A stretch of DNA of 64,000 bases from Ascidia mentula. Its lineage: Eukaryota > Chordata > Ascidiacea > Phlebobranchia > Ascidiidae. The DNA lies in assembly GCA_947561715.1 (NCBI GenBank), contig OX387197.1, positions 16,303,001 to 16,367,000 of the forward strand. The letters are read 5' to 3'. Made by a program: the position numbers and the translations under genes. Positions 4,657-42,183 of this stretch are shown piece by piece (position 1 is the stretch's first letter; each line of letters begins with the position of its first letter). Below the pieces are notes generated by a model, which searched no databases, was not told where the DNA came from, and worked only from the letters and a program-made list of their open reading frames with translations.

Positions 4657-4736
4657 CCCACCCAGTCTTAACTTCGGCCCTATCTCGCCCATTGTTAAGT
4701 GGGCTTGGGGCTCGAAAAAAACAGAGTCCAGCCTAT
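4657..4736 (+). repeat. Hybrid monomer, B head with A tail (80 bp)
   Basis: The unit starts with the full B leader and core, then carries A's 11-base CTTGGGGCTCG instead of B's TCGCG before the A tract. Its length, 80 bp, is 74 + 6 as expected for an exchange inside the shared 16-base core. It is the reciprocal form of the 47-bp hybrid at 42137-42183. Confidence 0.9.
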
Positions 4737-4941
4737 ACCACCCAGTCTTAACTTCGGCCCTATCTCGCCCATTGTTAAGTGGGTCGCGAAAAAAACAGAG
4801 TCCAGCCTATCCCACCCAGTCTTAACTTCGGCCCTATCTCGCCCATTGTTAAGTGGGTCGCGAAAAAAACAGAGTCCAGCCTATGTCTCCCATTGTTAAG
4901 TGGGCTTGGGGCTCGAAAAAAACAGAGTCCAGCCAATGTCT

Positions 4942-7150
4942 CCCATTGTTAAGTGGGCTTGGGGCTCGAAAAAAACAGAGTCCAGCCTATCCCACCCAGT
5001 CTTAACTTCGGCCCTATCTCGCCCATTGTTAAGTGGGTCGCGAAAAAAACAGAGTCCAGCCTATGTCGCCCATTGTTAAGTGGGCTTGGGGCTCGAAAAA
5101 AACAGAGTCCAGCCTATACCACCCAGTCTTAACTTCGGCCCTATCTCGCCCATTGTTAAGTGGGTCGCGAAAAAAACAGAGTCCAGCCTATCCCACCCAG
5201 TCTTAACTTCGGCCCTATCTCGCCCATTGTTAAGTGGGTCGCGAAAAAAACAGAGTCCAGCCTATGTCTCCCATTGTTAAGTGGGCTTGGGGCTCGAAAA
5301 AAACAGAGTCCAGCCAATGTCTCCCATTGTTAAGTGGGCTTGGGGCTCGAAAAAAACAGAGTCCAGCCTATCCCACCCAGTCTTAACTTCGGCCCTATCT
5401 CGCCCATTGTTAAGTGGGTCGCGAAAAAAACAGAGTCCAGCCTATGTCGCCCATTGTTAAGTGGGCTTGGGGCTCGAAAAAAACAGAGTCCAGCCTATCC
5501 CACCCAGTCTTAACTTCGGCCCTATCTCGCCCATTGTTAAGTGGGTCGCGAAAAAAACAGAGTCCAGCCTATGTCGCCCATTGTTAAGTGGGCTTGGGGC
5601 TCGAAAAAAACAGAGTCCAGCCTATACCACCCAGTCTTAACTTCGGCCCTATCTCGCCCATTGTTAAGTGGGTCGCGAAAAAAACAGAGTCCAGCCTATC
5701 CCACCCAGTCTTAACTTCGGCCCTATCTCGCCCATTGTTAAGTGGGTCGCGAAAAAAACAGAGTCCAGCCTATGTCTCCCATTGTTAAGTGGGCTTGGGG
5801 CTCGAAAAAAACAGAGTCCAGCCAATGTCTCCCATTGTTAAGTGGGCTTGGGGCTCGAAAAAAACAGAGTCCAGCCTATCCCACCCAGTCTTAACTTCGG
5901 CCCTATCTAGCCCATTGTTAAGTGGGTGGCGAAAAAAACAGAGTTCAGCCTATGTCTCCCATTGTTAAGTGGGCTTGGGGCTAGAAAAAAAACAGAGTCC
6001 AGCCTATCTCACCCAGTCTTAACTTCGGCCCTATCTCGCCCATTGTTAAGTGGGTCGCGAAAAAAACAGAGTCCAGCCTATGTCTCCCATTGTTAAGTGG
6101 GCTTGGGGCTCGAAAAAAACAGAGTCCAGCCTATCCCACCCAGTCTTAACTTCGGCAATATCTCGCCCATTGTTAAGTGGGTCGCGAAAAAAACAGAGTC
6201 CAGCCTATGTCTCCCATTGTTAAGTGGGCTTGGGGCTCGAAAAAAACAGAGTCCAGCCCATCCCACCCAGTCTTAACTTCGGCCCTATCTAGCCCATTGT
6301 TAAGTGGGTCGCGAAAAAAACAGAGTCCAGCCTATGTCGCCCATTGTTAAGTGGGCTTGGGGCCCGAAAAAAACAGAGTCCAGCCTATCCCACCCAGTCT
6401 TAACTTCGGCCCTATCTCGCCCATTGTTAAGTGGGTCGCGAAAAAAACAGAGTCCAGCCTATGTCGCCCATTGTTAAGTGGGCTTGGGGCTCGAAAAAAA
6501 CAGAGTCCAGCCTATCCCACCCAGTCTTAACTTCGGCCCTATCTCGCCCATTGTTAAGTGGGTCGCGAAAAAAACAGAGTCCAGCCTATGTCGCCCATTG
6601 TTAAGTGGGCTTGGGGCTCGAAAAAAACAGAGTCCAGCCTATACCACCCAGTCTTAACTTCGGCCCTATCTCGCCCATTGTTAAGTGGGTCGCGAAAAAA
6701 ACAGAGTCCAGCCTATCCCACCCAGTCTTAACTTCGGCCCTATCTCGCACATTGTTAAGTGGGTCGCGAAAAAAACAGAGTCCAGCCTATGTCTCCCATT
6801 GTTAAGTGGGCTTGGGGCTCGAAAAAAACAGAGTCCAGCCAATGTCTCCCATTGTTAAGTGGGCTTGGGGCTCGAAAAAAACAGAGTCCAGCCTATCCCA
6901 CCCTGTCTTAACTTCGGCCCTATCTCGCCCATTGTTAAGTGGGTCGCGAAAAAAACAGAGTCCAGCCTATGTCGCCCATTGTTAAGTGGGCTTGGGGCTC
7001 GAAAAAAACAGAGTCCAGCCTATCCCACCCAGTCTTAACTTCGGCCCTATCTCGCCCATTGTTAAGTGGGTCGCGAAAAAAACAGAGTCCAGCCTATGTC
7101 GCCCATTGTTAAGTGGGCTTGGGGCTCGAAAAAAACAGAGTCCAGCCTAT
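4942..7150 (+). repeat. 4,680-bp duplication, copy 1
   Basis: Reads as identical to 9622-11830 apart from one visible mismatch (T at 6904, A at 11584). The match includes rare variants such as the CTCGCACATT form near 6748. It contains ACC-marked ABBAABAB modules starting near 5080, 5588 and 6605. From 5118 onward it also repeats at a 2,033-bp offset into 7151 and beyond. Confidence 0.9.
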
Positions 7151-8740
7151 ACCACCCAGTCTTAACTTCGGCCCTATCTCGCCCATTGTTAAGTGGGTCG
7201 CGAAAAAAACAGAGTCCAGCCTATCCCACCCAGTCTTAACTTCGGCCCTATCTCGCCCATTGTTAAGTGGGTCGCGAAAAAAACAGAGTCCAGCCTATGT
7301 CTCCCATTGTTAAGTGGGCTTGGGGCTCGAAAAAAACAGAGTCCAGCCAATGTCTCCCATTGTTAAGTGGGCTTGGGGCTCGAAAAAAACAGAGTCCAGC
7401 CTATCCCACCCAGTCTTAACTTCGGCCCTATCTCGCCCATTGTTAAGTGGGTCGCGAAAAAAACAGAGTCCAGCCTATGTCGCCCATTGTTAAGTGGGCT
7501 TGGGGCTCGAAAAAAACAGAGTCCAGCCTATCCCACCCAGTCTTAACTTCGGCCCTATCTCGCCCATTGTTAAGTGGGTCGCGAAAAAAACAGAGTCCAG
7601 CCTATGTCGCCCATTGTTAAGTGGGCTTGGGGCTCGAAAAAAACAGAGTCCAGCCTATACCACCCAGTCTTAACTTCGGCCCTATCTCGCCCATTGTTAA
7701 GTGGGTCGCGAAAAAAACAGAGTCCAGCCTATCCCACCCAGTCTTAACTTCGGCCCTATCTCGCCCATTGTTAAGTGGGTCGCGAAAAAAACAGAGTCCA
7801 GCCTATGTCTCCCATTGTTAAGTGGGCTTGGGGCTCGAAAAAAACAGAGTCCAGCCAATGTCTCCCATTGTTAAGTGGGCTTGGGGCTCGAAAAAAACAG
7901 AGTCCAGCCTATCCCACCCAGTCTTAACTTCGGCCCTATCTAGCCCATTGTTAAGTGGGTGGCGAAAAAAACAGAGTTCAGCCTATGTCTCCCATTGTTA
8001 AGTGGGCTTGGGGCTAGAAAAAAAACAGAGTCCAGCCTATCTCACCCAGTCTTAACTTCGGCCCTATCTCGCCCATTGTTAAGTGGGTCGCGAAAAAAAC
8101 AGAGTCCAGCCTATGTCTCCCATTGTTAAGTGGGCTTGGGGCTCGAAAAAAACAGAGTCCAGCCTATCCCACCCAGTCTTAACTTCGGCAATATCTCGCC
8201 CATTGTTAAGTGGGTCGCGAAAAAAACAGAGTCCAGCCTATGTCTCCCATTGTTAAGTGGGCTTGGGGCTCGAAAAAAACAGAGTCCAGCCCATCCCACC
8301 CAGTCTTAACTTCGGCCCTATCTAGCCCATTGTTAAGTGGGTCGCGAAAAAAACAGAGTCCAGCCTATGTCGCCCATTGTTAAGTGGGCTTGGGGCCCGA
8401 AAAAAACAGAGTCCAGCCTATCCCACCCAGTCTTAACTTCGGCCCTATCTCGCCCATTGTTAAGTGGGTCGCGAAAAAAACAGAGTCCAGCCTATGTCGC
8501 CCATTGTTAAGTGGGCTTGGGGCTCGAAAAAAACAGAGTCCAGCCTATCCCACCCAGTCTTAACTTCGGCCCTATCTCGCCCATTGTTAAGTGGGTCGCG
8601 AAAAAAACAGAGTCCAGCCTATGTCGCCCATTGTTAAGTGGGCTTGGGGCTCGAAAAAAACAGAGTCCAGCCTATACCACCCAGTCTTAACTTCGGCCCT
8701 ATCTCGCCCATTGTTAAGTGGGTCGCGAAAAAAACAGAGT
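7151..8740 (+). repeat. 2,033-bp period, second (shortened) copy
   Basis: ACC markers at 5118, 5626 and 6643 recur at 7151, 7659 and 8676, and the CTAG-A8 unit at 5981 recurs at 8014, all 2,033 bp apart. This is sixteen dimers plus the extra A of the A8 tract. The copy ends early: the BB step expected after 8676 is a single B here. Confidence 0.85.
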
Positions 8741-9744
8741 CCAGCCTATGTCTCCCATTGTTAAGTGGGCTTGGGGCTCGAAAAAAACAGAGTCCAGCCA
8801 ATGTCTCCCATTGTTAAGTGGGCTTGGGGCTCGAAAAAAACAGAGTCCAGCCTATCCCACCCAGTCTTAACTTCGGCCCTATCTAGCCCATTGTTAAGTG
8901 GGTGGCGAAAAAAACAGAGTTCAGCCTATGTCTCCCATTGTTAAGTGGGCTTGGGGCTAGAAAAAAAACAGAGTCCAGCCTATCTCACCCAGTCTTAACT
9001 TCGGCCCTATCTCGCCCATTGTTAAGTGGGTCGCGAAAAAAACAGAGTCCAGCCTATGTCTCCCATTGTTAAGTGGGCTTGGGGCTCGAAAAAAACAGAG
9101 TCCAGCCTATCCCACCCAGTCTTAACTTCGGCCCTATCTCGCCCATTGTTAAGTGGGTCGCGAAAAAAACAGAGTCCAGCCAATGTCGCCCATTGTTAAG
9201 TGGGCTTGGGGCTCGAAAAAAACAGAGTCCAGCCAATGTCTCCCATTGTTAAGTGGGCTTGGGGCTCGAAAAAAACAGAGTCCAGCCTATCCCACCCAGT
9301 CTTAACTTCGGCCCTATCTAGCCCATTGTTAAGTGGGTCGCGAAAAAAACAGAGTCCAGCCTATGTCTCCCATTGTTAAGTGGGCTTGGGGCTCGAAAAA
9401 AACAGAGTCCAGCCTATCCCACCCAGTCTTAACTTCGGCCCTATCTCGCCCATTGTTAAGTGGGTCGCGAAAAAACAGAGTCCAGCCTATGTCTCCCATT
9501 GTTAAGTGGGCTTGGGGCTCGAAAAAAACAGAGTCCAGCCTATCCCACCCTGTCTTAACTTCGGCCCTATCTCGCCCATTGTTAAGTGGGTCGCGAAAAA
9601 AACAGAGTCCAGCCTATGTCGCCCATTGTTAAGTGGGCTTGGGGCTCGAAAAAAACAGAGTCCAGCCTATCCCACCCAGTCTTAACTTCGGCCCTATCTC
9701 GCCCATTGTTAAGTGGGTCGCGAAAAAAACAGAGTCCAGCCTAT
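8677..9744 (+). repeat. 3,356-bp duplication, copy 1
   Basis: Reads as identical to 12033-13100 over 1,068 bp, including a shortened A6 tract near 9471, a CCCTGTCTT variant near 9550 and a CCAATGTCG junction near 9181. The copies are separated by the second copy of the 4,680-bp duplication. Confidence 0.88.
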
Positions 9745-11830
9745 GTCGCCCATTGTTAAGTGGGCTTGGGGCTCGAAAAAAACAGAGTCCAGCCTATACC
9801 ACCCAGTCTTAACTTCGGCCCTATCTCGCCCATTGTTAAGTGGGTCGCGAAAAAAACAGAGTCCAGCCTATCCCACCCAGTCTTAACTTCGGCCCTATCT
9901 CGCCCATTGTTAAGTGGGTCGCGAAAAAAACAGAGTCCAGCCTATGTCTCCCATTGTTAAGTGGGCTTGGGGCTCGAAAAAAACAGAGTCCAGCCAATGT
10001 CTCCCATTGTTAAGTGGGCTTGGGGCTCGAAAAAAACAGAGTCCAGCCTATCCCACCCAGTCTTAACTTCGGCCCTATCTCGCCCATTGTTAAGTGGGTC
10101 GCGAAAAAAACAGAGTCCAGCCTATGTCGCCCATTGTTAAGTGGGCTTGGGGCTCGAAAAAAACAGAGTCCAGCCTATCCCACCCAGTCTTAACTTCGGC
10201 CCTATCTCGCCCATTGTTAAGTGGGTCGCGAAAAAAACAGAGTCCAGCCTATGTCGCCCATTGTTAAGTGGGCTTGGGGCTCGAAAAAAACAGAGTCCAG
10301 CCTATACCACCCAGTCTTAACTTCGGCCCTATCTCGCCCATTGTTAAGTGGGTCGCGAAAAAAACAGAGTCCAGCCTATCCCACCCAGTCTTAACTTCGG
10401 CCCTATCTCGCCCATTGTTAAGTGGGTCGCGAAAAAAACAGAGTCCAGCCTATGTCTCCCATTGTTAAGTGGGCTTGGGGCTCGAAAAAAACAGAGTCCA
10501 GCCAATGTCTCCCATTGTTAAGTGGGCTTGGGGCTCGAAAAAAACAGAGTCCAGCCTATCCCACCCAGTCTTAACTTCGGCCCTATCTAGCCCATTGTTA
10601 AGTGGGTGGCGAAAAAAACAGAGTTCAGCCTATGTCTCCCATTGTTAAGTGGGCTTGGGGCTAGAAAAAAAACAGAGTCCAGCCTATCTCACCCAGTCTT
10701 AACTTCGGCCCTATCTCGCCCATTGTTAAGTGGGTCGCGAAAAAAACAGAGTCCAGCCTATGTCTCCCATTGTTAAGTGGGCTTGGGGCTCGAAAAAAAC
10801 AGAGTCCAGCCTATCCCACCCAGTCTTAACTTCGGCAATATCTCGCCCATTGTTAAGTGGGTCGCGAAAAAAACAGAGTCCAGCCTATGTCTCCCATTGT
10901 TAAGTGGGCTTGGGGCTCGAAAAAAACAGAGTCCAGCCCATCCCACCCAGTCTTAACTTCGGCCCTATCTAGCCCATTGTTAAGTGGGTCGCGAAAAAAA
11001 CAGAGTCCAGCCTATGTCGCCCATTGTTAAGTGGGCTTGGGGCCCGAAAAAAACAGAGTCCAGCCTATCCCACCCAGTCTTAACTTCGGCCCTATCTCGC
11101 CCATTGTTAAGTGGGTCGCGAAAAAAACAGAGTCCAGCCTATGTCGCCCATTGTTAAGTGGGCTTGGGGCTCGAAAAAAACAGAGTCCAGCCTATCCCAC
11201 CCAGTCTTAACTTCGGCCCTATCTCGCCCATTGTTAAGTGGGTCGCGAAAAAAACAGAGTCCAGCCTATGTCGCCCATTGTTAAGTGGGCTTGGGGCTCG
11301 AAAAAAACAGAGTCCAGCCTATACCACCCAGTCTTAACTTCGGCCCTATCTCGCCCATTGTTAAGTGGGTCGCGAAAAAAACAGAGTCCAGCCTATCCCA
11401 CCCAGTCTTAACTTCGGCCCTATCTCGCACATTGTTAAGTGGGTCGCGAAAAAAACAGAGTCCAGCCTATGTCTCCCATTGTTAAGTGGGCTTGGGGCTC
11501 GAAAAAAACAGAGTCCAGCCAATGTCTCCCATTGTTAAGTGGGCTTGGGGCTCGAAAAAAACAGAGTCCAGCCTATCCCACCCAGTCTTAACTTCGGCCC
11601 TATCTCGCCCATTGTTAAGTGGGTCGCGAAAAAAACAGAGTCCAGCCTATGTCGCCCATTGTTAAGTGGGCTTGGGGCTCGAAAAAAACAGAGTCCAGCC
11701 TATCCCACCCAGTCTTAACTTCGGCCCTATCTCGCCCATTGTTAAGTGGGTCGCGAAAAAAACAGAGTCCAGCCTATGTCGCCCATTGTTAAGTGGGCTT
11801 GGGGCTCGAAAAAAACAGAGTCCAGCCTAT
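9622..11830 (+). repeat. 4,680-bp duplication, copy 2
   Basis: Second copy of 4942-7150, with the same monomer order and barcode variants and one visible mismatch. It ends where the ACC-starting B of copy 1 (7151) is replaced by a CCC-starting B at 11831. Confidence 0.9.
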
Positions 11831-12032
11831 CCCACCCAGTCTTAACTTCGGCCCTATCTCGCCCATTGTTAAGTGGGTCGCGAAAAAAACAGAGTCCAGC
11901 CTATGTCGCCCATTGTTAAGTGGGCTTGGGGCTCGAAAAAAACAGAGTCCAGCCTATACCACCCAGTCTTAACTTCGGCCCTATCTCGCCCATTGTTAAG
12001 TGGGTCGCGAAAAAAACAGAGTCCAGCCTATC

Positions 12033-13100
12033 CCACCCAGTCTTAACTTCGGCCCTATCTCGCCCATTGTTAAGTGGGTCGCGAAAAAAACAGAGTCCAG
12101 CCTATGTCTCCCATTGTTAAGTGGGCTTGGGGCTCGAAAAAAACAGAGTCCAGCCAATGTCTCCCATTGTTAAGTGGGCTTGGGGCTCGAAAAAAACAGA
12201 GTCCAGCCTATCCCACCCAGTCTTAACTTCGGCCCTATCTAGCCCATTGTTAAGTGGGTGGCGAAAAAAACAGAGTTCAGCCTATGTCTCCCATTGTTAA
12301 GTGGGCTTGGGGCTAGAAAAAAAACAGAGTCCAGCCTATCTCACCCAGTCTTAACTTCGGCCCTATCTCGCCCATTGTTAAGTGGGTCGCGAAAAAAACA
12401 GAGTCCAGCCTATGTCTCCCATTGTTAAGTGGGCTTGGGGCTCGAAAAAAACAGAGTCCAGCCTATCCCACCCAGTCTTAACTTCGGCCCTATCTCGCCC
12501 ATTGTTAAGTGGGTCGCGAAAAAAACAGAGTCCAGCCAATGTCGCCCATTGTTAAGTGGGCTTGGGGCTCGAAAAAAACAGAGTCCAGCCAATGTCTCCC
12601 ATTGTTAAGTGGGCTTGGGGCTCGAAAAAAACAGAGTCCAGCCTATCCCACCCAGTCTTAACTTCGGCCCTATCTAGCCCATTGTTAAGTGGGTCGCGAA
12701 AAAAACAGAGTCCAGCCTATGTCTCCCATTGTTAAGTGGGCTTGGGGCTCGAAAAAAACAGAGTCCAGCCTATCCCACCCAGTCTTAACTTCGGCCCTAT
12801 CTCGCCCATTGTTAAGTGGGTCGCGAAAAAACAGAGTCCAGCCTATGTCTCCCATTGTTAAGTGGGCTTGGGGCTCGAAAAAAACAGAGTCCAGCCTATC
12901 CCACCCTGTCTTAACTTCGGCCCTATCTCGCCCATTGTTAAGTGGGTCGCGAAAAAAACAGAGTCCAGCCTATGTCGCCCATTGTTAAGTGGGCTTGGGG
13001 CTCGAAAAAAACAGAGTCCAGCCTATCCCACCCAGTCTTAACTTCGGCCCTATCTCGCCCATTGTTAAGTGGGTCGCGAAAAAAACAGAGTCCAGCCTAT
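12033..13100 (+). repeat. 3,356-bp duplication, copy 2
   Basis: Second copy of 8677-9744. It diverges at 13101, where a BB step replaces the BA step of copy 1. Confidence 0.88.
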
Positions 13101-13987
13101 CCCACCCAGTCTTAACTTCGGCCCTATCTCGCCCATTGTTAAGTGGGTCGCGAAAAAAACAGAGTCCAGCCTATGTCTCCCATTGTTAAGTGGGCTTGGG
13201 GCTCGAAAAAAACAGAGTCCAGCCAATGTCTCCCATTGTTAAGTGGGCTTGGGGCTCGAAAAAAACAGAGTCCAGCCTATCCCACCCAGTCTTAACTTCG
13301 GCCCTATCTAGCCCATTGTTAAGTGGGTGGCGAAAAAAACAGAGTTCAGCCTATGTCGCCCATTGTTAAGTGGGCTTGGGGCTCGAAAAAAAACAGAGTC
13401 CAGCCTATCTCACCCAGTCTTAACTTCGGCCCTATCTCGCCCATTGTTAAGTGGGTCGCGAAAAAAACAGAGTCCAGCCTATGTCTCCCATTGTTAAGTG
13501 GGCTTGGGGCTCGAAAAAAACAGAGTCCAGCCTATCCCACCCAGTCTTAACTTCGGCCCTATCTCGCCCATTGTTAAGTGGGTCGCGAAAAAAACAGAGT
13601 CCAGCCTATGTCGCCCATTGTTAAGTGGGCTTGGGGCTCGAAAAAAACAGAGTCCAGCCTATCCCACCCAGTCTTAACTTCGGCCATATCTAGCCCATTG
13701 TTAAGTGGGTCGCGAAAAAAAAAGAGTCCAGCCTATGTCGCCCATTGTTAAGTGGGCTTGGGGCTCGAAAAAAACAGAGTCCAGCCTATCCCACCCAGTC
13801 TTAACTTCGGCCCTATCTAGCCCATTGTTAAGTGGGTCGCGAAAAAAACAGAGTCCAGCCTATCCCACCCAGTCTTAACTTCAGCCCTATCTCGCCCATT
13901 GTTAAGTGGGTCGCGAAAAAAACAGAGTCCAGCCTATCCCACCCAGTCTTAACTTCAGCCCTATCTCGCCCATTGTTAAGTGGGTCG
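13101..13987 (+). repeat. Transitional satellite segment
   Basis: Ordinary AB satellite with local variants: a TGGCGA B near 13,328, a CTCACCC B near 13,409 and the first CTTCAGCC B units. ACC-marked B units are no longer seen from here rightwards. No other sequence is present. Confidence 0.85.
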
Positions 13988-14085
13988 CGAAAAAAACAGA
14001 GTCCAGCCTATCCCACCCAGTCTTAACTTCGGCCCTATCTAGCCCATTGTTAAGTGGGTCGCGAAAAAAACAGAGTCCAGCCTAT
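13790..14085 (+). repeat. Run of four B monomers
   Basis: Units 13790-13863, 13864-13937, 13938-14011 and 14012-14085 are all B, with no A between them. The middle two carry CTTCAGCC in place of CTTCGGCC and read the same, so they are probably a recent single-monomer duplication. No other run of more than two full B units was noticed. Confidence 0.9.
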
Positions 14086-14801
14086 GTCGCCCATTGTTAA
14101 GTGGGCTTGGGGCTCGAAAAAAACAGAGTCCAGCCTATCCCACCCAGTCTTAACTTCGGCCCTATATAGCCCATTGTTAAGTGGGTCGCGAAAAAAACAG
14201 AGTCCAGCCTATGTCTCCCATTGTTAAGTGGGCCTGGGGCTAGAAAAAAACAGAGTCCAGCCTATCCCACCCAGTCTTATCTTCGGCCCTATCTAGCCCA
14301 TTGTTAAGTGGGTCGCGAAAAAAACAGAGTCCAGCCAATGTCGTCCATTGTTAAGTGGGCTTGGGGCTCGAAAAAAACAGAGTCCAGCCAATGTCTCCCA
14401 TTGTTAAGTGGGCTTGGGGCTCGAAAAAAACAGAGTCCAGCCTATCCCACCCAGTCTTAACTTCGGCCCTATCTAGCCCATTGTTAAGTGGGTCGCGAAA
14501 AAAACAGAGTCCAGCCTATGTCTCCCATTGTTAAGTGGGCTTGGGGCTCGAAAAAAACAGAGTCCAGCCTATCCCACCCAGTCTTAACTTCGGCCCTATC
14601 TCGCCCATTGTTAAGTGGGTCGCGAAAAAACAGAGTCCAGCCTATGTCTCCCATTGTTAAGTGGGCTTGGGGCTCGAAAAAAACAGAGTCCAGCCTATCC
14701 CACCCAGTCTTAACTTCGGCCCTATCTCGCCCATTGTTAAGTGGGTCGCGAAAAAAACAGAGTCCAGCCTATGTCGCCCATTGTTAAGTGGGCTTGGGGC
14801 T
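13988..14801 (+). repeat. 814-bp tandem duplication, copy 1
   Basis: Repeats at 14802 onward. Matching continues to 14727/15541 with one visible difference (C at 14422, A at 15236). Markers include CTATATAG near 14,163, CCTGGGGCTAG near 14,233, CTTATCTTCGG near 14,278, GTCGTCC near 14,342 and an A6 tract near 14,625. The period equals 7 A + 6 B less the one base lost in the A6 tract. Confidence 0.88.
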
Positions 14802-17702: not shown

Positions 17703-18598
17703 GCCCATTGTTAAGTGGGTCGCGAAAAAAACAGAGTCCAGCCTATGTCGCCCATTGTTAAGTGGGCTTGGGGCTCGAAAAAAACAGAGTCCAGCCTATC
17801 CCACCCAGTCTTAACTTCGGCCCTATCTAGCCCATTGTTAAGTGGGTCGCGAAAAAAACAGAGTCCAGCCTATGTCTCCCATTGTTAAGTGGGCTTGGGG
17901 CTCGAAAAAAACAGAGTCCAGCCTATCCCACCCAGTCTTAACTTCGGCCCTATCTAGCCCATTGTTAAGTGGGTCGCGATAAAAACAGCCTATCCCACCC
18001 AGTCTTAACTTCGGCCCTATCTAGCCCATTGTTAAGTGGGTCGCGATAAAAACAGCCTATCCCACCCAGTCTTAACTTCGGCCCTATCTAGCCCATTGTT
18101 AAGTGGGTCGCGAAAAAAACAGAGTCCAGCCTATGTCTCCCATTGTTAAGTGGGCTTGGGGCTCGAAAAAAACAGAGTCCAGCCTATCCCACCCAGTCTT
18201 AACTTCGGCCCTATCTCGCCCATTGTTGAGTGGGTCGCGAAAAAAACAGAGTCCAGCCTATGTCGCCCATTGTTAAGTGGGCTTGGGGCTCGAAAAAAAC
18301 AGAGTCCAGCCTATCCCACCCAGTCTTAACTTCGGCCCTATCTCGCCCATTGTTAAGTGGGTCGCGAAAAAAACAGAGTCCAGCCTATGTCTCCCATTGT
18401 TAAGTGGGCTTGGGGCTAGAAAAAAACAGAGTCCAGCCTATCCCACCCAGTCTTAACTTCGGCCCTATCTCGCCCATTGTTAAGTGGGTCGCGAAAAAAA
18501 CAGAGTCCAGCCTATGTCTCCCATTGTTAAGTGGGCTTGGGGCTAGAAAAAAACAGAGTCCAGCCTATCCCACCCAGTCTTAACTTCGGCAATATCTC
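17703..18598 (+). repeat. 896-bp tandem duplication, copy 1 (contains a C pair)
   Basis: Repeats at 18599-19494, with matching carried on to 18645/19541. A GTTGAG core variant at 18228 recurs at 19124. The unit equals 6 A + 6 B + 2 C, that is 762 + 134 bp. Confidence 0.88.
17927..18060 (+). repeat. First pair of 67-bp C monomers (17927-17993, 17994-18060)
   Basis: C is B with the A7 tract changed to ATAAAAA and a 7-bp loss in the tail, so CAGAGTCCAGCCTAT becomes CAGCCTAT. The lost 7 bp lie between two CAG triplets 7 bp apart, which is a classic slippage footprint. The same pair recurs at 18823-18956, 19846-19979, 21579-21712 and 22677-22810. All C units share both changes, so they have one origin. 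Confidence 0.93.
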
Positions 18599-30900: not shown

Positions 30901-30909
30901 TTGGGGCTC

Positions 30910-32680
30910 GAAAAAAACAGAGTCCAGCCTATCCCACCCAGTCTTAACTTCGGCCCTATCTAGCCCATTGTTAAGTGGGTCGCGATAAAAACAGCCTATC
31001 CCACCCAGTCTTAACTTCGGCCCTATCTAGCCCATTGTTAAGTGGGTCGCGAAAAAAACAGAGTCCAGTCTATGTCTCCCATTGTTAAGTGGGCTTGGGG
31101 CTCGAAAAAAACAGAGTCCAGCCTATCCCACCCAGTCTTAACTTCGGCCCTATCTCGCCCATTGTTAAGTGGGTCGCGAAAAAAACAGAGTCCAGCCTAT
31201 GTCGCCCATTGTTAAGTGGGCTTGGGGCTCGAAAAAAACAGAGTCCAGCCTATCCCACCCAGTCTTAACTTCGGCCCTATATAGCCCATTGTTAAGTGGG
31301 TCGCGAAAAAAACAGAGTCCAGCCTATCCCACCCAGTCTTAACTTCAGCCCTATCTCGACCATTGTTAAGTGGGTCGCGAAAAAAACAGAGTCCAGCCTA
31401 TGTCTCCCATTGTTAAGTGGGCCTGGGGCTAGAAAAAAACAGAGTCCAGCCTATCCCACCCAGTCTTATCTTCGGCCCTATCTAGCCCATTGTTAAGTGG
31501 GTCGCGAAAAAAACAGAGTCCAGCCTATGTCTCCCATTGTTAAGTGGGCTTGGGGCTCGAAAAAAACAGAGTCCAGCCAATGTCTCCCATTGTTAAGTGG
31601 GCTTGGGGCTCGAAAAAAACAGAGTCCAGCCTATCCCACCCAGTCTTAACTTCGGCCCTATCTAGCCCATTGTTAAGTGGGTCGCGAAAAAAACAGAGTC
31701 CAGCCTATGTCTCCCATTGTTAAGTGGGCTTGGGGCTCGAAAAAAACAGAGTCCAGCCTATCCCACCCAGTCTTAACTTCGGCCCTATCTCGCCCATTGT
31801 TAAGTGGGTCGCGAAAAAAACAGAGTCCAGCCTATGTCGCCCATTGTTAAGTGGGCTTGGGGCTAGAAAAAAACAGAGTCCAGCCTATCCCACCCAGTCT
31901 TAACTTCGGCCCTATCTCGCCCATTGTTAAGTGGGTCGCGAAAAAAACAGAGTCCAGCCTATGTCTCCCATTGTTAAGTGGGCTTGGGGCTAGAAAAAAA
32001 CAGAGTCCAGCCTATCCCACCCAGTCTTAACTTCGGCAATATCTCGCCCATTGTTAAGTGGGTCGCGAAAAAAACAGAGTCCAGCCTATGTCTCCCATTG
32101 TTAAGTGGGCTTGGGGCTCGAAAAAAACAGAGTCCAGCCTATCCCACCCAGTCTTAACTTCGGCCCTATCTCGCCCATTGTTAAGTGGGTCGCGAAAAAA
32201 ACAGAGTCCAGCCAATGTCGCCCATTGTTAAGTGGGCTTGGGGCTCGAAAAAAACAGAGTCCAGCCAATGTCTCCCATTGTTAAGTGGGCTTGGGGCTCG
32301 AAAAAAACAGAGTCCAGCCTATCCCACCCAGTCTTAACTTCGGCCCTATCTAGCCCATTGTTAAGTGGGTCGCGAAAAAAACAGAGTCCAGCCTATGTCG
32401 CCCATTGCTAAGTGGGCTTGGGGCTCGAAAAAAACAGAGTCCAGCCTATCCCACCCAGTCTTAACTTCGGCCCTATCTCGCCCATTGTTAAGTGGGTCGC
32501 GAAAAAAACAGAGTCCAGCCTATGTCGCCCATTGTTAAGTGGGCTTGGGGCTCGAAAAAAACAGAGTCCAGCCTATCCCACCCAGTCTTAACTTCGGCCC
32601 TATCTCGCCCATTGTTAAGTGGGTCGCGAAAAAAACAGAGTCCAGCCTATGTCTCCCATTGTTAAGTGGGCTTGGGGCTA
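30910..32680 (+). repeat. 1,771-bp tandem duplication, copy 1
   Basis: Constant 1,771-bp offset to 32681-34451, with matching carried on to 32732/34503. It contains one C unit (30933-30999), a 275-bp cassette (31254-31528) and a GCTAAG core variant near 32,408. Length equals 14 A + 13 B + 1 C. Confidence 0.9.
30933..30999 (+). repeat. Single C monomer
   Basis: Lone C, with counterparts at 32704-32770 (1,771-bp duplication) and 45467-45533 (14,534-bp duplication). Confidence 0.92.
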
Positions 32681-34503
32681 GAAAAAAACAGAGTCCAGCC
32701 TATCCCACCCAGTCTTAACTTCGGCCCTATCTAGCCCATTGTTAAGTGGGTCGCGATAAAAACAGCCTATCCCACCCAGTCTTAACTTCGGCCCTATCTA
32801 GCCCATTGTTAAGTGGGTCGCGAAAAAAACAGAGTCCAGTCTATGTCTCCCATTGTTAAGTGGGCTTGGGGCTCGAAAAAAACAGAGTCCAGCCTATCCC
32901 ACCCAGTCTTAACTTCGGCCCTATCTCGCCCATTGTTAAGTGGGTCGCGAAAAAAACAGAGTCCAGCCTATGTCGCCCATTGTTAAGTGGGCTTGGGGCT
33001 CGAAAAAAACAGAGTCCAGCCTATCCCACCCAGTCTTAACTTCGGCCCTATATAGCCCATTGTTAAGTGGGTCGCGAAAAAAACAGAGTCCAGCCTATCC
33101 CACCCAGTCTTAACTTCAGCCCTATCTCGACCATTGTTAAGTGGGTCGCGAAAAAAACAGAGTCCAGCCTATGTCTCCCATTGTTAAGTGGGCCTGGGGC
33201 TAGAAAAAAACAGAGTCCAGCCTATCCCACCCAGTCTTATCTTCGGCCCTATCTAGCCCATTGTTAAGTGGGTCGCGAAAAAAACAGAGTCCAGCCTATG
33301 TCTCCCATTGTTAAGTGGGCTTGGGGCTCGAAAAAAACAGAGTCCAGCCAATGTCTCCCATTGTTAAGTGGGCTTGGGGCTCGAAAAAAACAGAGTCCAG
33401 CCTATCCCACCCAGTCTTAACTTCGGCCCTATCTAGCCCATTGTTAAGTGGGTCGCGAAAAAAACAGAGTCCAGCCTATGTCTCCCATTGTTAAGTGGGC
33501 TTGGGGCTCGAAAAAAACAGAGTCCAGCCTATCCCACCCAGTCTTAACTTCGGCCCTATCTCGCCCATTGTTAAGTGGGTCGCGAAAAAAACAGAGTCCA
33601 GCCTATGTCGCCCATTGTTAAGTGGGCTTGGGGCTAGAAAAAAACAGAGTCCAGCCTATCCCACCCAGTCTTAACTTCGGCCCTATCTCGCCCATTGTTA
33701 AGTGGGTCGCGAAAAAAACAGAGTCCAGCCTATGTCTCCCATTGTTAAGTGGGCTTGGGGCTAGAAAAAAACAGAGTCCAGCCTATCCCACCCAGTCTTA
33801 ACTTCGGCAATATCTCGCCCATTGTTAAGTGGGTCGCGAAAAAAACAGAGTCCAGCCTATGTCTCCCATTGTTAAGTGGGCTTGGGGCTCGAAAAAAACA
33901 GAGTCCAGCCTATCCCACCCAGTCTTAACTTCGGCCCTATCTCGCCCATTGTTAAGTGGGTCGCGAAAAAAACAGAGTCCAGCCAATGTCGCCCATTGTT
34001 AAGTGGGCTTGGGGCTCGAAAAAAACAGAGTCCAGCCAATGTCTCCCATTGTTAAGTGGGCTTGGGGCTCGAAAAAAACAGAGTCCAGCCTATCCCACCC
34101 AGTCTTAACTTCGGCCCTATCTAGCCCATTGTTAAGTGGGTCGCGAAAAAAACAGAGTCCAGCCTATGTCGCCCATTGCTAAGTGGGCTTGGGGCTCGAA
34201 AAAAACAGAGTCCAGCCTATCCCACCCAGTCTTAACTTCGGCCCTATCTCGCCCATTGTTAAGTGGGTCGCGAAAAAAACAGAGTCCAGCCTATGTCGCC
34301 CATTGTTAAGTGGGCTTGGGGCTCGAAAAAAACAGAGTCCAGCCTATCCCACCCAGTCTTAACTTCGGCCCTATCTCGCCCATTGTTAAGTGGGTCGCGA
34401 AAAAAACAGAGTCCAGCCTATGTCTCCCATTGTTAAGTGGGCTTGGGGCTAGAAAAAAACAGAGTCCAGCCTATCCCACCCAGTCTTAACTTCGGCCCTA
34501 TCT
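32681..34503 (+). repeat. 1,771-bp tandem duplication, copy 2
   Basis: Abuts copy 1 and carries its own C unit, cassette (33025-33299) and GCTAAG variant. It ends at 34504, where CTCG replaces CTAG in a B unit. Super-block copy II does not hold this second copy. Confidence 0.9.
32704..32770 (+). repeat. Single C monomer
   Basis: Lone C produced by the 1,771-bp tandem duplication. Confidence 0.92.
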
Positions 34504-37500
34504 CGCCCATTGTTAAGTGGGTCGCGAAAAAAACAGAGTCCAGCCTATGTCTCCCATTGTTAAGTGGGCTTGGGGCTAGAAAAAAACAGAGTCCAGCCTA
34601 TCCCACCCAGTCTTAACTTCGGCAATATCTCGCCCATTGTTAAGTGGGTCGCGAAAAAAACAGAGTCCAGCCTATGTCTCCCATTGTTAAGTGGGCTTGG
34701 GGCTCGAAAAAAACAGAGTCCAGCCCATCCCACCCAGTCTTAACTTCGGCCCTATCTAGCCCATTGTTAAGTGGGTCGCGAAAAAAACAGAGTCCAGCCT
34801 ATGTCGCCCATTGTTAAGTGGGCTTGGGGCTCGAAAAAAACAGAGTCCAGCCTATCCCACCCAGTCTTAACTTCGGCCCTATCTAGCCCATTGTTAAGTG
34901 GGTCGCGAAAAAAACAGAGTCCAGCCTATGTCGCCCATTGTTAAGTGGGCTTGGGGCCCGAAAAAAACAGAGTCCAGCCTATCCCACCCAGTCTTAACTT
35001 CGGCCCTATCTCGCCCATTGTTAAGTGGGTCGCGAAAAAAACAGAGTCCAGCCTATGTCGCCCATTGTTAAGTGGGCTTGGGGCTCGAAAAAAACAGAGT
35101 CCAGCCTATCCCACCCAGTCTTAACTTCGGCCCTATCTAGCCCATTGTTAAGTGGGTCGCGAAAAAAACAGAGTCCAGCCTATGTCGCCCATTGTTAAGT
35201 GGGCTTGGGGCTCGAAAAAAACAGAGTCCAGCCTATCCCACCCAGTCTTAACTTCGGCCCTATCTCGCCCATTGTTAAGTGGGTCGCGAAAAAAACAGAG
35301 TCCAGCCTATCCCACCCAGTCTTAACTTCGGCCCTATCTCGCCCATTGTTAAGTGGGTCGCGAAAAAAACAGAGTCCAGCCTATGTCTCCCATTGTTAAG
35401 TGGGCTTGGGGCTCGAAAAAAACAGAGTCCAGCCAATGTCTCCCATTGTTAAGTGGGCTTGGGGCTCGAAAAAAACAGAGTCCAGCCTATCCCACCCAGT
35501 CTTAACTTCGGCCCTATCTCGCCCATTGTTAAGTGGGTCGCGAAAAAAACAGAGTCCAGCCTATCCCACCCAGTCTTAACTTCGGCCCTATCTAGCCCAT
35601 TGTTTAGTGGGTCGCGAAAAAAACAGAGTCCAGCCTATGTCTCCCATTGTTAAGTGGGCTTGGGGCTCGAAAAAAACAGAGTCCAGCCTATCCCACCCAG
35701 TCTTAACTTCGGACCTATCTCGCCCATTGTTAAGTGGGTCGCGAAAAAAACAGAGTCCAGCCTATGTCTCCCATTGTTAAGTGGGCTTGGGGCTCGAAAA
35801 AAACAGAGTCCAGCCTATGTCTCCCATTGTTAAGTGGGCTTGGGGCTCGAAAAAAACAGAGTCCAGCCTATCCCACCCAGTCTTAACTTCGGCCCTATCT
35901 TGCCCATTGTTAAGTGGGTCGCGAAAAAAACAGAGTCCAGCCTATGTCTCCCATTGTTAAGTGGGCTTGGGGCTCGAAAAAAACAGAGTCCAGCCTATCC
36001 CACCCAGTCTTAACTTCGGCCCTATCTCGCCCATTGTTAAGTGGGTCGCGAAAAAAACAGAGTCCAGCCTATCCCACCCAGTCTTAACTTCGGCCCTATC
36101 TCGCCCATTGTTAAGTGGGTCGCGAAAAAAACAGAGTCCAGCCTATGTCTCCCATTGTTAAGTGGGCTTGGGGCTAGAAAAAAACAGAGTCCAGCCCATC
36201 CCACCCAGTCTTAACTTCGGCCCTATCTAGCCCATTGTTAAGTGGGTCGCGAAAAAAACAGAGTCCAGCCTATGTCGCCCATTGTTAAGTGGGCTTGGGG
36301 CTCGAAAAAAACAGAGTCCAGCCTATCCCACCCAGTCTTAACTTCGGCCCTATCTAGCCCATTGTTAAGTGGGTCGCGAAAAAAACAGAGTCCAGCCTAT
36401 GTCGCTCATTGTTAAGTGGGCTTGGGGCCCGAAAAAAACAGAGTCCAGCCTATCCCACCCAGTCTTAACTTCGGCCCTATCTCGCCCATTGTTAAGTGGG
36501 TCGCGAAACAAACAGAGTCCAGCCTATGTCGCCCATTGTTAAGTGGGCTTGGGGCTCGAAAAAAACAGAGTCCAGCCTATCCCACCCAGTCTTAACTTCG
36601 GCCCTATCTAGCCCATTGTTAAGTGGGTCGCGAAAAAAACAGAGTCCAGCCTATGTCGCCCATTGTTAAGTGGGCTTGGGGCTCGAAAAAAACAGAGTCC
36701 AGCCTATCCCACCCAGTCTTAACTTCGGCCCTATCTCGCCCATTGTTAAGTGGGTCGCGAAAAAAACAGAGTCCAGCCTATCCCACCCAGTCTTAACTTC
36801 GGCCCTATCTCGCCCATTGTTAAGTGGGTCGCGAAAAAAACAGAGTCCAGCCTATGTCTCCCATTGTTAAGTGGGCTTGGGGCTCGAAAAAAACAGAGTC
36901 CAGCCAATGTCTCCCATTGTTAAGTGGGCTTGGGCTCGAAAAAAACAGAGTCCAGCCTATCCCACCCAGTCTTAACTTCGGCCCTATCTAGCCCATTGTT
37001 AAGTGGGTGGCGAAAAAAACAGAGTTCAGCCTATGTCTCCCATTGTTAAGTGGGCTTGGGGCTAGAAAAAAAACAGAGTCCAGCCTATCTCACCCAGTCT
37101 TAACTTCGGCCCTATCTCGCCCATTGTTAAGTGGGTCGCGAAAAAAACAGAGTCCAGCCTATGTCTCCCATTGTTAAGTGGGCTTGGGGCTCGAAAAAAA
37201 CAGAGTCCAGCCTATCCCACCCAGTCTTAACTTCGGCCCTATCTCGCCCATTGTTAAGTGGGTCGCGAAAAAAACAGAGTCCAGCCTATGTCCCCCATTG
37301 TTAAGTGGGCTTGGGGCTCGAAAAAAACGGAGTCCAGCCTATCCCACCCAGTCTTAACTTCGGCCCTATCTAGCCCATTGTTAAGTGGGTCGCGAAAAAA
37401 ACAGAGTTCAGCCTATGTCTCCCATTGTTAAGTGGGCTTGGGGCTAGAAAAAAACAGAGTCCAGCCTATCCCACCCAGTCTTAACTTCGGCCCTATCTCG

Positions 37501-37626
37501 CCCATTGTTAAGTGGGTCGCGAAATAAACAGAGTCCAGCCTATGTCTCCCATTGTTAAGTGGGCTTGGGGCTCGAAAAAAACAGAGTCCAGCCTATCCCA
37601 CCCAGTCTTAACTTCGGCCCTATCTC
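34504..37626 (+). repeat. Satellite block with ABB steps, matching 48.0-50.5 kb
   Basis: ABB trimers begin near 35199, 35453, 35961 and 36670. The segment near 35.2-36.1 kb matches 48.07-48.95 kb, but has one extra B beside the GTTTAG variant near 35,604. The later part lacks one dimer relative to 48.97-49.1 kb. A G lost from CTTGGGGCTCG near 36,931 and a GAAATAAAC tract at 37521 are shared with the later copies at 50442, 58905 and 63738. Confidence 0.85.
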
Positions 37627-39030
37627 GCCCATTGTTAAGTGGGTCGCGAAAAAAACAGAGTCCAGCCTATGTCGCCCATTGTTAAGTGGGCTTGGGGCTC
37701 GAAAAAAACAGAGTCCAGCCTATCCCACCCAGTCTTAACTTCGGCCCTATCTAGCCCATTGTTAAGTGGGTCGCGATAAAAACAGCCTATCCCACCCAGT
37801 CTTAACTTCGGCCCTATCTAGCCCATTGTTAAGTGGGTCGCGAAAAAAACAGAGTCCAGCCTATGTCGCCCATTGTTAAGTGGACTTGGGGCACGAAAAA
37901 AACAGAGTCCAGCCTATCCCACCCAGTCTTAACTTCGGCCCTATCTAGCCCATTGTTAAGTGGGTCGCGATAAAAACAGCCTATCCCACCCAGTCTTAAC
38001 TTCGGCCCTATCTAGCCCATTGTTAAGTGGGTCGCGAAAAAAACAGAGTCCAGCCTATGTCGCCCATTGTTAAGTGGGCTTGGGGCTCGAAAAAAACAGA
38101 GTCCAGCCTATCCCACACAGTCTTAACTTCGGCCCTATCTCGCCCATTGTTAAGTGGGTCGCGAAAAAAACAGAGTCCAGCCTATGTCTCCCATTGTTAA
38201 GTGGGCTTGGGGCTCGAAAAAAACAGAGTCCAGCCTATCCCACCCAGTCTTAACTTCGGCCCTATCTCGCCCATTGTTAAGTGGGTCGCGAAAAAAACAG
38301 AGTCCAGCCTATGTCGCCCATTGTTAAGTGGGCTTGGGGCTCGAAAAAATCGGAGTCCAGCCTATCCCACCCAGTCTTAACTTCGGCCCTATCTAGCCCA
38401 TTGTTAAGTGGGTGGCGAAAAAAACAGAGTTCAGCCTATGTCTCCCATTGTTAAGTGGGCTTGGGGCTAGAAAAAAACAGAGTCCAGCCTATCCCACCCA
38501 GTCTTAACTTCGGCCCTATCTCGCCCATTGTTAAGTGGGTCGCGAAAAAAACAGAGTCCAGCCTATGTCTCCCATTGTTAAGTGGGCTTGGGGCTAGAAA
38601 AAAACAGAGTCCAGCCTATCCCACCCAGTCTTAACTTCGGCCCTATCTCGCCCATTGTTAAGTGGGTCGCGAAAAAAACAGAGTCCAGCCTATGTCTCCC
38701 ATTGTTAAGTGGGCTTGGGGCTAGAAAAAAACAGAGTCCAGCCTATCGCACCCAGTCTTAACTTCGGCAATATCTCGCCCATTGTTAAGTGGGTCGCGAA
38801 AAAAACAGAGTCCAGCCTATGTCTCCCATTGTTAAGTGGGCTTGGGGCTCGAAAAAAACAGAGTCCAGCCCATCCCACCCAGTCTTAACTTCGGCCCTAT
38901 CTAGCCCATTGTTAAGTGGGTCGCGAAAAAAACAGAGTCCAGCCTATGTCGCCCATTGTTAAGTGGGCTTGGGGCTCGAAAAAAACAGAGTCCAGCCTAT
39001 CCCACCCAGTCTTAACTTCGGCCCTATCTA
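37627..39030 (+). repeat. 1,404-bp unit, copy 1 of 3
   Basis: A 22-monomer unit of 10 A + 10 B + 2 C: 530 + 740 + 134 = 1,404 bp. It has C units at 37724-37790 and 37918-37984, separated by one B and one A. Markers are GGCACG near 37,890, CCACACAG near 38,113, AAAAAATCGG (T at 38350), TGGCGA near 38,413, and CGCACCC plus CAATAT near 38,750-38,770. This copy alone has GGACTTGG near 37,884. Confidence 0.92.
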
Positions 39031-40434
39031 GCCCATTGTTAAGTGGGTCGCGAAAAAAACAGAGTCCAGCCTATGTCGCCCATTGTTAAGTGGGCTTGGG
39101 GCTCGAAAAAAACAGAGTCCAGCCTATCCCACCCAGTCTTAACTTCGGCCCTATCTAGCCCATTGTTAAGTGGGTCGCGATAAAAACAGCCTATCCCACC
39201 CAGTCTTAACTTCGGCCCTATCTAGCCCATTGTTAAGTGGGTCGCGAAAAAAACAGAGTCCAGCCTATGTCGCCCATTGTTAAGTGGGCTTGGGGCACGA
39301 AAAAAACAGAGTCCAGCCTATCCCACCCAGTCTTAACTTCGGCCCTATCTAGCCCATTGTTAAGTGGGTCGCGATAAAAACAGCCTATCCCACCCAGTCT
39401 TAACTTCGGCCCTATCTAGCCCATTGTTAAGTGGGTCGCGAAAAAAACAGAGTCCAGCCTATGTCGCCCATTGTTAAGTGGGCTTGGGGCTCGAAAAAAA
39501 CAGAGTCCAGCCTATCCCACACAGTCTTAACTTCGGCCCTATCTCGCCCATTGTTAAGTGGGTCGCGAAAAAAACAGAGTCCAGCCTATGTCTCCCATTG
39601 TTAAGTGGGCTTGGGGCTCGAAAAAAACAGAGTCCAGCCTATCCCACCCAGTCTTAACTTCGGCCCTATCTCGCCCATTGTTAAGTGGGTCGCGAAAAAA
39701 ACAGAGTCCAGCCTATGTCGCCCATTGTTAAGTGGGCTTGGGGCTCGAAAAAATCGGAGTCCAGCCTATCCCACCCAGTCTTAACTTCGGCCCTATCTAG
39801 CCCATTGTTAAGTGGGTGGCGAAAAAAACAGAGTTCAGCCTATGTCTCCCATTGTTAAGTGGGCTTGGGGCTAGAAAAAAACAGAGTCCAGCCTATCCCA
39901 CCCAGTCTTAACTTCGGCCCTATCTCGCCCATTGTTAAGTGGGTCGCGAAAAAAACAGAGTCCAGCCTATGTCTCCCATTGTTAAGTGGGCTTGGGGCTA
40001 GAAAAAAACAGAGTCCAGCCTATCCCACCCAGTCTTAACTTCGGCCCTATCTCGCCCATTGTTAAGTGGGTCGCGAAAAAAACAGAGTCCAGCCTATGTC
40101 TCCCATTGTTAAGTGGGCTTGGGGCTAGAAAAAAACAGAGTCCAGCCTATCGCACCCAGTCTTAACTTCGGCAATATCTCGCCCATTGTTAAGTGGGTCG
40201 CGAAAAAAACAGAGTCCAGCCTATGTCTCCCATTGTTAAGTGGGCTTGGGGCTCGAAAAAAACAGAGTCCAGCCCATCCCACCCAGTCTTAACTTCGGCC
40301 CTATCTAGCCCATTGTTAAGTGGGTCGCGAAAAAAACAGAGTCCAGCCTATGTCGCCCATTGTTAAGTGGGCTTGGGGCTCGAAAAAAACAGAGTCCAGC
40401 CTATCCCACCCAGTCTTAACTTCGGCCCTATCTA
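39031..40434 (+). repeat. 1,404-bp unit, copy 2 of 3
   Basis: Same 22-monomer order and markers as copy 1 (TCGG T at 39754). C units are at 39128-39194 and 39322-39388. Confidence 0.92.
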
Positions 40435-41838
40435 GCCCATTGTTAAGTGGGTCGCGAAAAAAACAGAGTCCAGCCTATGTCGCCCATTGTTAAGTGGGCT
40501 TGGGGCTCGAAAAAAACAGAGTCCAGCCTATCCCACCCAGTCTTAACTTCGGCCCTATCTAGCCCATTGTTAAGTGGGTCGCGATAAAAACAGCCTATCC
40601 CACCCAGTCTTAACTTCGGCCCTATCTAGCCCATTGTTAAGTGGGTCGCGAAAAAAACAGAGTCCAGCCTATGTCGCCCATTGTTAAGTGGGCTTGGGGC
40701 ACGAAAAAAACAGAGTCCAGCCTATCCCACCCAGTCTTAACTTCGGCCCTATCTAGCCCATTGTTAAGTGGGTCGCGATAAAAACAGCCTATCCCACCCA
40801 GTCTTAACTTCGGCCCTATCTAGCCCATTGTTAAGTGGGTCGCGAAAAAAACAGAGTCCAGCCTATGTCGCCCATTGTTAAGTGGGCTTGGGGCTCGAAA
40901 AAAACAGAGTCCAGCCTATCCCACACAGTCTTAACTTCGGCCCTATCTCGCCCATTGTTAAGTGGGTCGCGAAAAAAACAGAGTCCAGCCTATGTCTCCC
41001 ATTGTTAAGTGGGCTTGGGGCTCGAAAAAAACAGAGTCCAGCCTATCCCACCCAGTCTTAACTTCGGCCCTATCTCGCCCATTGTTAAGTGGGTCGCGAA
41101 AAAAACAGAGTCCAGCCTATGTCGCCCATTGTTAAGTGGGCTTGGGGCTCGAAAAAATCGGAGTCCAGCCTATCCCACCCAGTCTTAACTTCGGCCCTAT
41201 CTAGCCCATTGTTAAGTGGGTGGCGAAAAAAACAGAGTTCAGCCTATGTCTCCCATTGTTAAGTGGGCTTGGGGCTAGAAAAAAACAGAGTCCAGCCTAT
41301 CCCACCCAGTCTTAACTTCGGCCCTATCTCGCCCATTGTTAAGTGGGTCGCGAAAAAAACAGAGTCCAGCCTATGTCTCCCATTGTTAAGTGGGCTTGGG
41401 GCTAGAAAAAAACAGAGTCCAGCCTATCCCACCCAGTCTTAACTTCGGCCCTATCTCGCCCATTGTTAAGTGGGTCGCGAAAAAAACAGAGTCCAGCCTA
41501 TGTCTCCCATTGTTAAGTGGGCTTGGGGCTAGAAAAAAACAGAGTCCAGCCTATCGCACCCAGTCTTAACTTCGGCAATATCTCGCCCATTGTTAAGTGG
41601 GTCGCGAAAAAAACAGAGTCCAGCCTATGTCTCCCATTGTTAAGTGGGCTTGGGGCTCGAAAAAAACAGAGTCCAGCCCATCCCACCCAGTCTTAACTTC
41701 GGCCCTATCTAGCCCATTGTTAAGTGGGTCGCGAAAAAAACAGAGTCCAGCCTATGTCGCCCATTGTTAAGTGGGCTTGGGGCTCGAAAAAAACAGAGTC
41801 CAGCCTATCCCACCCAGTCTTAACTTCGGCCCTATCTA
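40435..41838 (+). repeat. 1,404-bp unit, copy 3 of 3
   Basis: Third copy (TCGG T at 41158), with C units at 40532-40598 and 40726-40792. After it the array continues with a GGCCCG A unit near 41,911, the same right neighbour as the single 1,404-like unit near 50.5-52.0 kb. Confidence 0.92.
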
Positions 41839-42136
41839 GCCCATTGTTAAGTGGGTCGCGAAAAAAACAGAGTCCAGCCTATGTCGCCCATTGTTAAGTG
41901 GGCTTGGGGCCCGAAAAAAACAGAGTCCAGCCTATCCCACCCAGTCTTAACTTCGGCCCTATCTCGCCCATTGTTAAGTGGGTCGCGAAAAAAACAGAGT
42001 CCAGCCTATGTCGCCCATTGTTAAGTGGGCTTGGGGCTCGAAAAAAACAGAGTCCAGCCTATCCCACCCAGTCTTAACTTCGGCCCTATCTAGCCCATTG
42101 TTAAGTGGGTCGCGAAAAAAACAGAGTCCAGCCTAT

Positions 42137-42183
42137 GTCGCCCATTGTTAAGTGGGTCGCGAAAAAAACAGAGTCCAGCCTAT
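42137..42183 (+). repeat. Hybrid monomer, A head with B tail (47 bp)
   Basis: The unit starts with A's GTCG head and shared core but then has B's TCGCG before the A tract, giving 53 - 6 = 47 bp. It is the reciprocal product of the 80-bp hybrid at 4657-4736; 47 + 80 = 127. It is also equal to the minimal core common to A and B. Confidence 0.92.

Follow-up and report, generated by a model that had tools for sequence, protein, structure and literature searches.

Two hybrid monomers in an A/B satellite

The stretch of the Ascidia mentula genome analyzed here (the window) covers 64 kb, positions 16303001-16367000 of C1, the 27.9-Mb contig that holds it, and contains two satellite units, 80 and 47 bp long, in which the head of one monomer type is joined to the tail of another. 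Unit decomposition showed that satellite DNA fills the entire window. Its two monomers, A and B, add up to 127 bp and have in common a core of 16-19 bp and a tail of 23-24 bp. An earlier note on this DNA had given the core as 16 bases; as read from the sequences, this length holds for A units with a GTCT head, whereas the shared tract measures 17 or 19 bp when A units with a GTCG head are compared with B units with a CTAG or CTCG head. By dynamic programming against references for A, B and both hybrids, the window was split into 1008 units, whose variants (A2, B5, B6, B18, B22 and others) carry labels of our own, assigned by exact sequence. Neighbor pairs comprised 437 A-B, 437 B-A, 72 B-B and 54 A-A. 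Considering the last two classes, alternation of A and B is often broken, while hybrids are rare.

We also searched the assembly (195.8 Mb in 79 contigs) with exact patterns, which miss variants, so that all genome-wide counts given below are lower bounds. Among the matches listed, the satellite patterns extended over roughly 2 Mb, from ~15.43 to 17.40 Mb of C1, on mixed strands at 15.4-15.96 Mb, on the plus strand at 16.05-16.61 Mb and on the minus strand at 16.99-17.40 Mb; these changes of strand suggest large inversions. The DNA fetched totals 169,578 bases, and the part lying beyond the window and its two 6-kb flanks (a 76-kb block) was mostly picked around hybrids and is not a random sample.

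Both hybrid units are real, and the coordinates, lengths and compositions reported for them earlier proved exact. The first (4657-4736, plus strand, as are all window features described here), recognized from its sequence, decomposition and flanks, consists of a 31-bp B head ending in CTCG, the 16-bp shared core CCCATTGTTAAGTGGG at 4688-4703, where B switches to A, and the middle and tail of A. The second (42137-42183), recognized from its sequence and decomposition, has an A head (GTCG), the shared core at 42141-42156, where A switches to B, and the middle and tail of B. We asked of each unit whether it lies within about 1% of a prefix of one frequent monomer followed by a suffix of another, and both do: the 80-mer matches a B head with an A tail at 0 edits, and the 47-mer, 1 edit away from the reference with a GTCT head, has 0 edits if its prefix is taken from the frequent variant A2 (GTCG head, 131 copies in the 76-kb block). 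Their neighbors, A[80]B and B[47]A, also fit an exchange between two places in the higher-order repeats, with parents that can be traced by their variants. Decomposition made one 80-bp and two 47-bp calls in the window, but the other 47-bp call (2292-2338), located behind a 60-bp 'A' unit, carries a CTCG head of B type and is no hybrid. Thus, the window holds one clean hybrid of each kind, as had been stated; beyond it, the assembly contains 98 exact junctions of the 80 type and 55 of the 47 type.

It should be noted that two of the arguments first offered for an exchange are true and carry no weight. The sum of 47 and 80 is indeed 127, which is an identity once A and B add up to that length. 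Likewise, both units do switch within the core, but any clean head/tail hybrid is forced to do so, because the core is the only sequence common to the head and the type-specific middle.

Flanks and probable parents of the two units

Two further 80-mers were found in the 6 kb upstream of the window, at C1:16301547 and C1:16302590. Leftward over 300 bp, the window 80-mer differs from either of them by 2 edits, both inside its own head; rightward, 0 edits separate it from the nearer copy over 1200 bp and from the other over 500 bp. Two units upstream of the window 80-mer, with one A between, stands a private variant of B, designated B22 (4530-4603), which has a TGGC middle and a GTTCAGCTTAT tail. 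A search of the assembly for exact copies of its mark returned three, one shortly before each member of the trio of related 80-mers. Because the marker and the flanks are common to all three, the 80-mers form a family with a single origin, and the window unit is, on these sequence comparisons, one of its three copies. With regard to the two head differences, either the window copy or the upstream copies may have changed afterwards.

The right neighbor of the 80-mer is a B5 unit (4737-4810, starting with ACCACCC). In the 76-kb block, B5 is preceded by A2 at 20 of 23 places and by 80-mers at the other three, so the right parent appears to have been an A2 standing before B5. On the other side, the left flank of the copy at C1:16301547 differs from a B6 context ending at window position 986 by 2 edits over 890 bp. 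The parents therefore look like a B6-type unit on the left and an A2 before B5 on the right. One of several equally good candidate pairs lies at 971-1542, where a B6 core (971-986) and the core of an A2 before B5 (1527-1542) are 556 bp apart.

Over 1000 bp, no edit separates the left flank of the 47-mer from three other places in the window where A2 is intact (cores ending at 52269, 54301 and 60605); its left parent context is the A2 within 'A6 B1 A2 B2'. The middle and tail of the 47-mer are of the TCGC/GTCCAG type found before A7, not of the B6 type. Identification of the right parent is helped by the right neighbor, a 54-bp A7 unit at 42184-42237. Elsewhere in the 76-kb block, A7 follows B6 ten times and B18, B1 and B39 once each, and wherever else A7 and B9 stand side by side there (ten places), B6 or B18 comes before them. 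Starting from the 47-mer core, 148 bp recur unchanged at six sites located 121 to 249 kb upstream. At 300-bp flanks, the best candidate parents are an A2 core (62876-62891) and the core of a B18 before A7 (63209-63224), 333 bp apart within 62876-63224. No copy of the window 47-mer with the same neighbors on both sides was found in the fetched DNA.

The exact parents, and with them the kind of event, are less firm than these best fits may imply, and several results weigh against taking any one pair literally. For the 80-mer, flanks of 150 and 300 bp do not separate the shifts +556, -461 and -969, and the event may have been either a deletion or a duplication. At 450 bp, the window 80-mer fits +734 best, at another place, and the copy at C1:16301547 fits -969 (3 edits) ahead of +556 (5 edits). 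For the 47-mer, 0 edits over 150 bp are reached by +334 and by six or more other shifts, +333 is ahead at 300 bp by a single edit (2 versus 3), and at 450 bp -301 is best, the right flank being nowhere matched with fewer than 6 edits.

Recurrence of hybrids and other changes of unit length

Hybrids are a minority class in the assembly, where 11,543 A-type and 9,506 B-type exact cores (21,049 normal ones) were counted next to the 98 and 55 hybrid junctions. Stricter initial patterns had given 97 and 8, the low 8 being due to the added demand that CCTAT precede the head and GAAAAA follow the middle. All 98 and all 55 junctions are on C1 and most of them are clustered: the stretch 16.46-16.61 Mb has 47 and the stretch 16.99-17.14 Mb has 43 of the 80-type junctions (90 of 98 in total), and 49 of the 55 47-type junctions are found at 17.21-17.30 Mb. 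In some parts the hybrids recur regularly within the local repeat pattern, such as the 80-mers at C1:17129501-17135500 (seven in 6 kb) and the 47-mers at C1:17223501-17229500 (eight in 6 kb).

The fetched DNA contains 64 units with a length of 80 or 47 bp, of which 61 could be grouped by their flanks into 18 families (14 of 80-mers and 4 of 47-mers); two 47-bp pieces of a 20-bp deletion and one 80-mer close to an end were left out. The number of events is uncertain in both directions, as clustering merges unlike groups and may split old families. In particular, and to the detriment of the count, it joins the window 47-mer with the groups at C1:15432352 and C1:16053561 despite their different neighbors.

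The clearest simple case is the 80-mer at C1:16384390, which, on the assumption that 47 bp were lost between adjoining B and A cores, matches C1:16368817 without an edit for 450 bp in either direction. Similarly, the 47-mer at C1:16053557 would be explained by loss of 80 bp between adjoining A and B cores, at 0 edits over 150 bp. Neither case is free of counter-evidence: an 842-bp duplication (-842) fits the former equally well, and at 300 bp, shifts of 1144 and 1511 need 5 edits where the 80-bp shift of the latter needs 6. For most of the families run from the 16.46-16.55 and 17.29-Mb stretches, no convincing parents were present among the fetched DNA.

Unit length also changes outside the core. 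Intermediate lengths with breakpoints there were among the findings that the earlier note had said would refute its reading, and they exist in part: units of 67 and 60 bp in the window and of 64, 43, 71 and 79 bp in the other fetched parts. As a contrast to the two hybrids, a 20-bp deletion across an A/B boundary produced the adjacent 60-bp and 47-bp calls at 2232-2338. A second copy of it occurs at C1:16299303-16299409, ~5.9 kb away; thus, this deletion has been duplicated as well. The 67-bp form of B (ending in GATAAAAACAGCCTAT), which is without 7 bp between two CAG motifs, is represented by 24 units between 17927 and 59368 of the window (for example, 17927-17993), standing in tandem pairs or before a normal B. 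The 79-bp unit at C1:16386328 runs from a B head into the end of a tail; this join falls outside the core and apparently coincides with a short match, CAGCC. With all six lengths (79, 67, 64, 43, 71 and 60 bp) breaking elsewhere, junctions are not always found in the core, which is therefore one of several sites of change.

We also measured conservation of the core. In the 76-kb block, 7 of 32 core sites were variable versus 46 of 95 elsewhere; in a larger sample, with substitutions only, the difference was not clear (22 of 32 versus 77 of 95, p = 0.22). In that sample, the per-site deviation rate was lowest in the core, at 0.0069 for A and 0.0043 for B, against 0.0088-0.064 and 0.011-0.025, respectively, elsewhere. 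As for exchanges in the shared tail, the 153 AA and BB junctions in 76 kb fall into just 3 to 10 flank families by single linkage, which gives no firm ratio to core exchanges. The B head (CCCAGTCTTAAC) and the core (GTTAAGTGGG) could pair as a predicted hairpin of -6.9 kcal/mol (z -1.2 for the whole B unit; z -2.1 for a hand-picked 59-base piece). As a cause of slippage this hairpin is weak at z -1.2, and we did not use it.

Origin of the hybrids and comparison with known satellites

Our results are probably best accounted for by recurrent out-of-register exchange at the 16-19 bp core, followed by local amplification. The two window units most likely arose in separate short-homology exchanges with different parents, and the proposal that exchange between A and B within the core creates new unit lengths is still the best reading of both of them. 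Occasionally, misaligned pairing would bring an A core together with a B core of either the same strand or a sister strand, through replication slippage, single-strand annealing or microhomology-mediated joining, or unequal sister exchange. Ordinary homologous recombination usually involves longer tracts than 16-19 bp, a length typical of slippage, annealing or end joining. A join inside the core would leave either an 80-mer with a B head and an A tail or a 47-mer with an A head and a B tail, and each hybrid may later have been copied or lost through the local duplication that builds higher-order repeats. The repair pathway, and the choice between deletion and duplication at each event, are parts of this model that we infer.

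More tentatively, and with somewhat less than even confidence, the satellite might be regarded as a closed system of two modules, in which heads and tails are joined at the core, all four combinations (53, 74, 80 and 47 bp) exist and arise repeatedly by exchange over 16-19 bp, and hybrids seed new higher-order repeats. The stretches that could have been seeded in this way are ~16.46-16.61 and 16.99-17.14 Mb for 80-mers and ~17.21-17.30 Mb for 47-mers. If this were true, short-homology exchange at a single site would be the main source of unit-length diversity, at a rate that could be measured.

The order of neighbors bears on the distinction between exchange and in-place gene conversion, in which a short tract would have replaced the head, or the 4- or 10-bp middle, of a normal unit. 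In all fetched DNA, the clean 47-mers stand as B[47]A in 19 of 19 cases, and the 43 80-mers comprise 26 A[80]B, 7 A[80]A, 7 B[80]B and 3 B[80]A. Conversion in an alternating array yields neither A[80]B nor B[47]A, the orders of the two window units. However, 17 of the 43 80-mers depart from A[80]B, which speaks against exchange as a uniform explanation, and part of these other 80-mers may have a different or compound history; conversion in an alternating array would produce the orders seen in the 7 B[80]B and 7 A[80]A cases. In addition, both head differences of the window 80-mer are nearer the common B head and resemble a small conversion patch. A further point in favor of conversion, and against exchange, is that the A-A and B-B neighbors counted above (54 and 72 pairs in the window) offer places where it could also produce A[80]B and B[47]A. 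What disfavors conversion for both window units is that the starting orders it needs were unseen in the 76-kb block. The 80-mer would require a B before B5 or an A1-A2 pair, whereas every non-hybrid B5 follows A2 (20 of 20); the 47-mer would require A2 directly before A7, or B2 followed by another B and then A7. On these sequence contexts, exchange is preferred over conversion, which we consider unlikely.

It is improbable that the 80- and 47-bp units, which contain a 27-bp and a 6-bp segment together or lack the two, are instead ancestral to A and B, with the window copies surviving from that earlier state. B does equal the 27-bp segment plus a 47-bp unit one base off the 47-mer, and hybrid-rich stretches fit the A and B references worse than the 76-kb block does (0.906-0.928 versus 0.948 per base). 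Nevertheless, a poor fit is also found in one stretch that has no hybrids (0.898 at C1:16215353), the exact junction expected of B minus 27 bp had 0 matches in the pattern search, and flanks in or near the window place each hybrid as a join of two recognizable local variants. A related route, in which a deletion between CCTAT repeats took 27 bp out of B to give the 47-mer, was rejected, with 0 exact matches and an observed GTC head of A type. An assembly or polishing error at two single places, suggested by the occurrence of each hybrid just once in the window, is quite improbable given that three 80-mers have a private marker and flanks in common and that both junction types recur tens of times; the window 47-mer, which is without a copy having the same neighbors on both sides in the fetched DNA, may still be such an error.

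Finally, the earlier note had described the two units as the reciprocal products of an A x B exchange, while allowing that they need not come from one event. The description does not hold and the caveat does, and we regard reciprocal origin in a single exchange as very improbable. Complementary lengths and composition agree with it, and A[80]B and B[47]A are the orders that a reciprocal pair would have. However, the flanks of the two products are not the swapped flanks of the same two parents: a B6-like head and an A2 before B5 on the one side, the A2 of 'A6 B1 A2 B2' and a TCGC/GTCCAG tail before A7 on the other. The left-flank comparison is a weak test with few markers, the 47-mer differing from A units before B5 by at least 1 edit over 150-250 bp versus 0 elsewhere. 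The expected counterparts are also absent: the assembly contains no exact match to a 47-mer carrying the TGGC middle of B6 type, as expected for the 80-mer, and the 'B1 B1 A4' context expected for the counterpart of the 47-mer follows none of the 42 80-mers tested, from a total of 98. Normally, an exchange places its two products on different chromatids; because a counterpart may thus lie on another chromatid, its absence is weak evidence alone, and reciprocal origin is rejected on the parents, with the missing counterparts as lesser support.

The satellite itself had no counterpart in the collections searched. Rfam returned nothing at gathering scores, and plasmid and phage collections gave no match. 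Within the partial coverage of the literature text available to us, searches by satellite sequence words and unit lengths found no paper on this satellite; the core sequence and the unit lengths were in none, and only single short sequence words matched, one in each of two papers.

On the other hand, the process appears to have parallels in three published studies. In Meloidogyne satellites, changes between monomers occur in short conserved motifs, of which Box 1, similar to the CENP-B box, measures 17 bp; the mechanisms proposed there are two, illegitimate recombination and a transposition-like cut-and-paste (PMC3694981). The switch of monomers in a short shared motif is similar here; unlike that box, our core has the lowest deviation rate and a share of variable sites that is not clearly lower (22/32 versus 77/95, p = 0.22). 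In human alpha satellite, D1/D2 hybrids, often one per higher-order repeat and with the hybrid data given as not shown, were attributed to heavy deletion of a former pure array, one of three explanations for mixed domains (PMC4496801); this is a different satellite, and the likeness lies in a possible origin of hybrids by deletion. A further analogy is that of the 33 hybrid monomers listed in human centromeres by CentromereArchitect, which combine a prefix of one monomer with a suffix of another; the K+F hybrid of cenX, for example, was ascribed, from its neighbors as here, to a likely deletion from an F-block into a K-block (PMC8336445).

Thus, the hybrids described here are an ordinary kind of satellite rearrangement, whose principle, deletion or unequal exchange, is already known. 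Alpha-satellite monomers are near 171 bp and alike throughout. Unlike these, A and B share just a short core and a tail, so that exchange gives new lengths of 80 and 47 bp and the join is confined to 16-19 bp. Since the resemblance between the two monomers is limited to the core and the shared tail, each exchange can be located with a precision of 16-19 bp, something that is probably more difficult in arrays whose monomers resemble one another over their full length, and the array offers a clear record of how new satellite monomers arise and then amplify.

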